Positions 3,001 through 5,707 of a DNA stretch of 64,000 bases are shown in pieces; positions within the stretch are counted from its first letter, which is position 1; the number at the start of each line of letters is the position of its first letter. The position numbers and the translations under genes are program-made. Source of the stretch: Nymphaea colorata (Eukaryota; Streptophyta; Magnoliopsida; Nymphaeales; Nymphaeaceae); contig NC_045141.1 in NCBI RefSeq assembly GCF_008831285.2, forward strand, positions 24,289,315-24,353,314. Direction: 5' to 3'. The notes under the pieces were generated by a model. It was not told the origin of the DNA. It saw only the letters and a list, made by a program, of their open reading frames with translations, and did no database searches.

Positions 3001-5707
3001 TGTGGTGCACGTCACTGAGCCTCGGAAAAAGTTTCTTCTTTTGTTCTTGGGACCTGTTAAGCAATCTCAATATAGAACAAGTGTACGGTACTTATCTTTC
3101 AGTTTCAGCAATAGATGGTCATAAAGCAGCCTTTTAATTGCTCAACTGTTTTAGACAGACTACAAGATCTATTCCTTGGTACGAATTAATCACTTCGAAG
3201 TACGGTTTCACAAGATTATATTCCACAATTACAGAGATGTATATAATAAAGTCATGTAGTCTGATCTTATTAGTTCGGCAATGTTTCCAATAGTATAACT
3301 GGATTCTTCTGATCGTGTAGGGGTTGCAATGGAGTTGGAGGATTCCTTGTTTCCTTTGTTGAGAGAGGTTAGCGTTGGTATAGATCCTTATGAGGTATTC
3401 AAAGATGCAGAATGGGCACTTCTAATAGGTGCAAAGCCACGGGGGCCCGGAATGGAAAGGGGAGACTTGCTAGATATAAATGGAAAGATCTTTGCCAAAC
3501 AGGTTCCATGCTAATTCTCCTTTAAGTTCAATAATGGTTATCAGTTTTAAGGCCCTGTCTAACTTTCACATTCATGTTCAACCATGCAGGGTAGAGCTCT
3601 CAATGCGGTTGCGTCTCGCAATGTCAAGGTCATAGTTGTTGGCAATCCTTGCAACACAAAGTAAGATATGTCTGTACCTGGTAAATATGTTAAATTAACC
3701 CAGAACAACAGTAGTAATCAGTATTTTCTGGTGTCAGTACTCTGATTTGTTTGAAGAATGCACCAAATATTCCTGCAAAGAACTTTCATGCTCTAACAAG
3801 GTTGGATGAGAACAGAGCTAAATGCCAAGTACGTTTCCTGATTTTAAGCTCTCCCCATGTTAGGGTACTGCGGTGACTTTCTGGCTTCTGATGTTCATAC
3901 AACATTTTAAATAATACTTGAGAAATTGCATATTGCAGCTGGCCCTGAAAGCTGGTGTATTTTATGATAAAGTTTCAAATATGACCATATGGGGAAACCA
4001 TTCAACGACCCAGGTAACTAAATGCAATTTTTATCAGCAATCATGTTAGCAACGAAAGCTAGAACTGGGCTATTAATGAGGTCTAACCAGTTCATAAAAT
4101 AACAGGTTCCAGATTTTTTAAATGCTAGAATCCTTGGCTTACCAGTGAAAGAAGTTATTACAGACACCCAATGGTTGGAACATGAATTCACCCAAAAGGT
4201 TCAAAAGGTATGTAAATTAAGCATTTCTGAGGCTGGGAGAAGATTCTGCATCTGTTTATCAAAGGGTCGCTTCTCATCTTAGCATTGCAATTTCAGGCAA
4301 AGCACCTGATAAATATGATCGCTTAAGATCAAGTTTATTCTTGCAGAGAGGCGGTGAACTTATCAAGAAGTGGGGGAGATCATCAGCTGCATCAACGGCA
4401 GTATCTATTGTTGACGCCATAAGGTCCCTTGTTTTCCCCACACCTGAAGGAGACTGGTTTTCTTCAGCGGTATGTTCTATGGACAACAGTATCTTTGATC
4501 TCTGAAAGGAATTGATCCCTTTTAGTTTCTTGAATTTAGAAATTGATTCTGCATCACCGCAGTTCTTATGAACAACTCTTACGCAAACCAATCGTATACA
4601 CTATGCACTGTACCATTATATCTTATTGAGTGCTCAACCTACTCAGTGGGCTACTGCTGGCCCTATTGTCCACTTTCTCACCCTGAAGGCACAGGGCACT
4701 CTACTTACAGGCCTAAATCATTTATTGGCAGAAATTTGTCGTTGTTGAGATCTAAGGACAACGAGAAAAATGTCGTCCAGTTGCCCTTTCTGCCACAAAA
4801 ATTTCTCTATGAGCACTATATTTTCTACAATGCAGCAGAATAGTCTCCAAGTATCTTGCTGCATTTTTTCTGACTGTTTTTGGTTGGTCTGAAGTTTTCA
4901 GCATAGACTATGATGATTTATGTTCTGTGAAGATGAAAGTTTCAACAGAAAAAGAAATAATTTCATCAAATAAACGGACTTCAGAAAATCAGGTTTCTCG
5001 CAGGTCATCATGATTACTGATCCATAAATATGCTAGTTTGCTCCTCGCTCTACCCACAATATCTTTAGCTCATTTTGTTATTCCAGCTTGCAATTTTGAT
5101 CATCTAGCTCTTTATACACAAAAATCATGAACAAATGAAACAAAACAGAGTTGTCTGCTACCTATTAGAAGCTGGGAATTATTAATATATTTTGTGACAA
5201 CAGTATCAATTATTTCTCAAATTTCCTTGTCTACCACAACAGGTTTATACCAACGGCAACCCTTACGGCATAGCAGACGATATTGTTTTCAGTATGCCTT
5301 GCAGATCAAAGGTTAATATTTTACATACTCGGGTTCATCAATTAATAAATACATTTTTGTTTTCTCTCAATGTACATGAAAAACTGCATCCCTGAACCTG
5401 GTATTTGTCATGTCAGGGTAATGGAGATTATGAGCTGGTGGAAGATGTAATTATTGACGACTTCCTTCGACAACGAATAAAGAAAGTAAGTTTTTACTAT
5501 TCCTTGCAAACTTTGCGTAACTCTTATCAGCTTAAGCGGTATCAACCTGATATCAAGCTGCTGGAACAGAGTGAAGCTGAGTTGCTTGCTGAAAAGAAAT
5601 GTGTTGCACACCTCACCGGAGATATCTTTAGGTTCAAGAAGTGCAACCTCAATGGCAATGGATACTGTGACCTGCCTGGGGATACCATGCTTCCTGGAGA
5701 ACAATAG
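2..5707 (+). CDS. NADP-MDH: Chloroplast NADP-dependent malate dehydrogenase, 5'-partial, 13 exons
   Basis: Reduces oxaloacetate to malate with NADPH in the chloroplast stroma (malate valve). Exons read by in-phase GT-AG joining: 2-156, 697-817, 2403-2489, 2825-2909, 3321-3502, 3590-3660, 3738-3828, 3939-4013, 4106-4207, 4347-4469, 5243-5311, 5417-5485, 5570-5707, giving 455 residues. The start codon is upstream of the window; exon 1 is Ser/Arg-rich like a transit peptide and ends CSAAPQ. The N-terminal regulatory pair is seen as ECYGVFC, the dinucleotide site as SGAAGMISN, the NADP-type GSERS motif, catalytic Arg/Asp/His in [17 protein letters not shown] and WGNHSTTQ, and the C-terminal redox extension ending [12 protein letters not shown]. 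In the family the two C-terminal cysteines (CVAHLTG...CDLP) are 12 residues apart; here they are 22 apart, with an extra Cys in between. Thioredoxin control is expected from the retained cysteines. Identification is firm; exon boundaries are predictions. Confidence 0.96.
1697..1776. repeat. (TA)n microsatellite in NADP-MDH intron 2
   Basis: About 80 bases of almost pure TA repeat with one interruption, inside the 1.6-kb second intron. The Tyr/Ile-rich translations across it are artefacts of the repeat. Confidence 0.95.

Follow-up and report, generated by a model that had tools for sequence, protein, structure and literature searches.

An NADP-malate dehydrogenase duplicate of Nymphaea colorata with a ten-residue, cysteine-containing insert in its C-terminal redox switch, most likely derived from a collapsed intron

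NADP-malate dehydrogenase (NADP-MDH) is among the best-studied light-regulated enzymes of the chloroplast, and eight cysteines are strictly conserved in the enzymes of land plants (PMC3838966). The oxidised enzyme is inactive, and its C-terminal disulfide, which has a potential of -384 mV in sorghum, accompanies the block of the active-site residue Arg204 by the penultimate glutamate (PMC3838966). When the Arabidopsis enzyme is truncated from the second cysteine of the C-terminal pair onwards, it shows 30-45% of its maximal activity in the oxidised state, and Arabidopsis plants lacking the C-terminal switch grow poorly in fluctuating light or in short days (PMC8017969). Among the matches listed by our literature search, whose scope left most subscription literature outside, no title dealt with an NADP-MDH carrying an insertion in the C-terminal loop. 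A search of texts, figures being outside its scope, gave no match to the string CVAHLTG, and for malate dehydrogenase in combination with Nymphaea, chloroplast and thioredoxin the only match was a title on bean seedlings.

The window analysed here, a stretch of 64,000 nucleotides from Nymphaea colorata, contains on its plus strand a gene that our gene model describes as an intact NADP-MDH gene, with 13 exons, GT-AG borders at all 12 introns and a product of 468 amino acids with no internal stop. Its start codon is at -37, left of the window edge, and the window opens within exon 1, whose inner part (1..156) encodes a transit-peptide-like region at the N-terminus; an N-terminal extension is present in the product, and chloroplast targeting is putative. 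Exon 2 (697..817) carries the N-terminal regulatory cysteine pair, C93 and C98, and is followed in the model by exons 3 (2403..2489), 4 (2825..2909), 5 (3321..3502), 6 (3590..3660), 7 (3738..3828), 8 (3939..4013), 9 (4106..4207), 10 (4347..4469), 11 (5243..5311) and 12 (5417..5485), and by the last exon, exon 13 (5570..5707), which has 138 bp including the stop codon. Against TIGR01757, the NCBIfam profile of plant NADP-MDH, the product scored 714.9 bits (cut-off: 598.3), covering positions 10-386 of the 387 in the profile. Its top two matches in the PDB were 1CIV and 7MDH, which we take to be the NADP-MDH of Flaveria and of sorghum, respectively. Within intron 2, a long run of AT dinucleotides was noticed by eye at 1697-1776.

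The preliminary description of this DNA had reported a ten-residue insertion with an extra cysteine in exon 13 and a distance of 22 residues, instead of the usual 12, between the two C-terminal regulatory cysteines. Both statements were confirmed by alignment of the product with 1CIV, 7MDH and the product of a second gene copy found on contig C12 (hereafter the C12 copy). The insert consists of 30 in-frame bases (5624..5653, plus strand) encoding residues 442-451, with a boundary that can be slid by about one codon. In the HMMER alignment with 1CIV and 7MDH, it appeared as a single gap of exactly ten residues, located between CVAHLTG with its following D or E and the glycine that precedes the second cysteine. 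C434 (codon 5600..5602) and C456 (codon 5666..5668) aligned with the first and the second C-terminal regulatory cysteine of 1CIV and 7MDH, and the additional cysteine, C448 (codon 5642..5644), fell within the insert, directly preceded by two lysines (FKKC). C434 and C456 are 22 residues apart because the 30 bases add ten residues including C448; the equivalent pair is spaced by 12 in the C12 copy, 1CIV and 7MDH, as are C418 and C430 of the Arabidopsis enzyme (PMC8017969). We regard the 12-residue spacing as typical of plant NADP-MDH rather than as a defining trait. C93 and C98 aligned with the N-terminal regulatory pair of 1CIV and 7MDH, and all eight cysteines common to these two proteins were retained, C448 being the ninth in the mature part. 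The product ends in GEQ and has thus kept the penultimate glutamate, and the tail beyond C456 is unchanged in length (12 residues) and still acidic. Since the insert is absent from the C12 copy, 1CIV and 7MDH, we concluded that it is derived.

That the 30 bases are an assembly error, or that they are spliced out of the mRNA, is very improbable. Their sequence is unique, in frame and free of stops, and it is not a homopolymer slip. The insert starts with GAT/ATC and ends with AAT/GGC (the slash marking the border), so that GT and AG are no longer at its ends. In addition, 30 bases are far fewer than the 77 bp of the shortest intron in either gene copy, which bears out the earlier claim that the extra bases are in frame and too short for an intron. 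An intron that runs from a GT within exon 13 to an AG located at the stop codon or further downstream is conceivable, and its removal would delete the second cysteine. A 33-base string spanning the insert was found at one place only in the 407.8-Mb genome when up to 3 mismatches were allowed, and the lack of a second place argues against a repeat that was copied here recently.

When the genome (407.8 Mb in 783 contigs) was searched with the DNA of exon 13, the window and one further place, at about 17.44 Mb on contig C12, were found, and the query matched the latter in two pieces lying 86 bases apart; the count of two NADP-MDH copies rests on this search with the last exon. The C12 place (L004) is a second NADP-MDH gene, with 14 exons and a product scoring 762.2 bits against TIGR01757. 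Exons 1-12 have identical lengths and phases in the two copies, the other 12 introns all agree in position and phase, and 320 of the 367 compared residues of the products are identical. The C12 gene ends with 54 bp, a phase-0 intron 13 of 85 bp (gtatac...tttcag) and another 54 bp, and its protein reads CVAHLTGEGIAYC at the C-terminal switch, with a cysteine spacing of 12. In the window copy, intron 13 is absent and the gene ends with 54 + 30 + 54 bp in a single exon, the insert being positioned exactly at the intron-13 site of the C12 copy. As predicted from its gene sequence, the plant thus also has an NADP-MDH with a normal switch. The two genes differ further in intron 2, which has 1585 bp in the window copy vs 280 bp in the C12 copy, and in intron 3, where the C12 copy uses a GC donor (gcaagt; L004 3571) and the window copy GT.

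The surroundings of the two genes suggest that they are most likely whole-genome duplicates. In a comparison that spanned only 104 and 129 kb, a fucosyltransferase-like gene upstream and an expansin-like gene (PF03330) downstream were found next to both copies in the same order and orientation. On contig C4, to the left of the window, there are four fucosyltransferase-like places in a row (about -26.7 to -8.5 kb; L019-L021), one of them broken into pieces, and the one C4 frame that was scanned matched PF03254; the C12 counterpart is a single place at 17432100-17433716. A Copia-type LTR retroelement occupies 39785-44081 of the window (plus strand), its gag-integrase frame overlapping with the frame for reverse transcriptase, and similar sequence is present on the opposite strand of contig C12 at about 17.418-17.421 Mb. 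With the simple Nei-Gojobori method, the window and C12 copies differed by a dS of 0.75 in the mature part (dN/dS 0.11), of 0.71 in the core (dN/dS 0.08) and of 0.79 over all codons (dN/dS 0.16); bootstrapping of the codons from 100 on gave ranges of 0.56-0.90 for dS and 0.06-0.14 for dN/dS. Paralogues of Nymphaea colorata have a KS peak at about 0.9 (PMC7015852), and we infer that the pair dates from the duplication behind this peak.

Purifying selection acts on the two copies taken together, and the window copy is changing faster at the protein level than the C12 copy. In the 367 gap-free columns, counted where 1CIV and 7MDH agree, 25 substitutions occurred in the window copy alone and 6 in the C12 copy alone (chi-square 11.6). 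This imbalance, together with the existence of a normal second copy, favours a reading in which the insert is near-neutral baggage in a duplicate that is slowly losing constraint, its regulation not being usefully changed. However, the dN/dS values given above for the mature part and the core argue against such a loss of constraint, as does the condition of the window gene, which is free of stops and frameshifts, has intact splice sites and retains the eight shared cysteines. We give this reading about even odds. It is compatible with the origin of the insert discussed below and competes only with the functional part of our interpretation.

Since the insert coincides exactly in position with an intron that is kept by the C12 copy and missing here, a collapsed intron that became coding is its likeliest origin; judged by their position, the 30 bases most likely descend from intron 13. 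An internal deletion in the intron of about 85 bp would have left about 30 bp, which were below spliceable length, in frame and open. Once splicing was lost, the splice sites of intron 13 would have been free to change and the remnant would have become coding. A maximum of 14 exons, reached in the chloroplastic subgroup, was reported for the MDH genes of cotton (PMC5102359), up to 13 introns for those of tomato (PMC9456053), and 14 exons for one MDH group of sweet potato (PMC10706315), which is not specified as the NADP group. Gene structures with 14 exons and 13 introns in other plants suggest that this form is old; it is probably ancestral, with intron 13 lost in the window copy, on the basis of exon and intron counts in other species.

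The GC content of the insert is 0.355, compared with 0.31-0.39 for introns 2-12 of the gene and 0.449 for exons 2-13, and among shuffles with the composition of intron 13, a fraction of 0.53 gave a 30-base stretch that is open by chance. In the C12 copy, intron 13 (L004 6891-6975) itself contains no stop in the frame continued from the exon before it; as it has 85 bp, the frame would shift if it were kept whole, and a stop would soon follow. Local alignment of the insert with this intron gave no significant score: 1402 of 5000 dinucleotide-preserving shuffles of the insert scored as high, and 1110 of 5000 shuffles of the intron reached the score of the insert. End-anchored alignment was not significant either (757 of 3000 shuffles as high), and in it C12 intron 13 was outscored by 4 of the remaining 24 introns in the two genes. 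The open frame through C12 intron 13 includes TRKC where the insert reads FKKC, in an underlying alignment that is not significant. The power of this test is low: in controls, p ≤ 0.05 was reached by 16 of 99 31-base pieces of short homologous introns and, when homologous introns were compared at full length, by 4 of 12 pairs. Because the alignment is not significant, we claim no sequence homology between insert and intron, and the collapse reading rests on position.

The same arrangement could have arisen in two steps, a precise loss of intron 13, for example by recombination with a cDNA, and a later insertion of 30 bases at the same junction, which may partly duplicate the preceding KKC..L codons; in a variant of this history, the cDNA was made from an mRNA with a part-retained intron. 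Intron 13, the one lost, lies closest to the 3' end of the gene, and cDNA recombination favours 3' introns. The insert also weakly resembles the exon-13 sequence upstream of it (75 of 2000 shuffles were as good), but this likeness depends on three gaps and emerged from a set of five comparisons. Shuffles were as good as the insert in 1760 of 2000 cases for the downstream part of exon 13, in 594 of 2000 for intron 12, and in 101 and 155 of 200 for the plus and minus strands of the rest of the 10-kb locus. A separate insertion would have had to land on this particular junction out of about 1,377 coding positions (459 codons), a coincidence of about 1 in 1,400, and we regard a two-step origin as unlikely.

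By analogy with the characterized enzymes, we expect the window enzyme to be still redox-regulated, and it is perhaps leakier in the dark; a new partner cysteine, a shifted redox potential and an altered autoinhibition are plausible consequences of the insert. The C434-C456 bond could still form if the additional residues loop out, and the unchanged tail could then still keep the active site blocked in the dark. According to the loop-entropy formula, 1.5 R ln n, an increase of n from 13 to 23 would weaken the bond by about 0.5 kcal/mol and make its potential about 10 mV less negative (calculated by hand). With so small a shift expected from the length of the loop by itself, a large effect would need the extra thiol. 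A C434-C448 bond would join cysteines 14 residues apart, near the ancestral 12, and would leave 20 trailing residues instead of 12, with the glutamate probably misplaced, whereas with a C448-C456 bond the tail would not be tethered to the core at all. Because these alternative bonds would misplace or untie the tail, the thiol of C448 could compete with the correct bond and leave the oxidised enzyme with activity in the dark; the lysine pair before C448 may raise the reactivity of this thiol. Strict dark shut-off would be covered by the normal C12 copy. It is quite unlikely that the window gene encodes a second isoform with a three-cysteine switch, in which C434 pairs with either C448 or C456 and the plant operates two malate valves in parallel, one strict and one leaky, the latter having arisen through the collapse of an intron. 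In such a switch, the C434-C448 bond would leave a 20-residue tail unable to seat the glutamate, and the oxidised enzyme would therefore be partly active.

To summarize, we regard the window gene as encoding a true NADP-MDH whose switch is a variant, most likely one that arose by collapse of the last intron after duplication. We assign a probability of about 0.72 to the combined reading, in which intron 13 of a whole-genome duplicate of NADP-MDH collapsed into a coding insert and competition by C448 would leave the oxidised enzyme leakier; this value allows for the other introns that outscored intron 13. A plant that has the normal loop in one copy and a longer one, probably due to intron collapse, in the other is a natural experiment for the influence of loop length and of an additional thiol on the redox threshold, and the gene would be a compact example of an intron loss in a duplicate that alters a regulatory site of the protein.

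The window copy resembles sorghum 7MDH and Flaveria 1CIV in its whole catalytic domain, its N- and C-terminal extensions, the eight cysteines and the penultimate glutamate, and differs from land-plant NADP-MDH in the C-terminal pair being 22 residues apart, in the ninth cysteine and in having 13 exons instead of 14. The C12 copy, in contrast, has intron 13 (85 bp), the 12-residue spacing and a slower protein change. In plant MADS-box genes, exonization likewise let duplicates gain coding residues at an exon-intron boundary through a change of gene structure, but there it was inferred from an exon that aligns with an intron of a relative (PMC4852290), whereas the present case is positional, with an alignment that is not significant, and the whole intron is gone from the window copy. 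Natural variation of the switch itself is known from Chlamydomonas, whose C-terminal disulfide has a potential of -369 mV vs -384 mV in sorghum and whose N-terminal extension has no cysteines (PMC3838966); the window copy, in contrast, has both cysteine pairs and a longer C-terminal loop.
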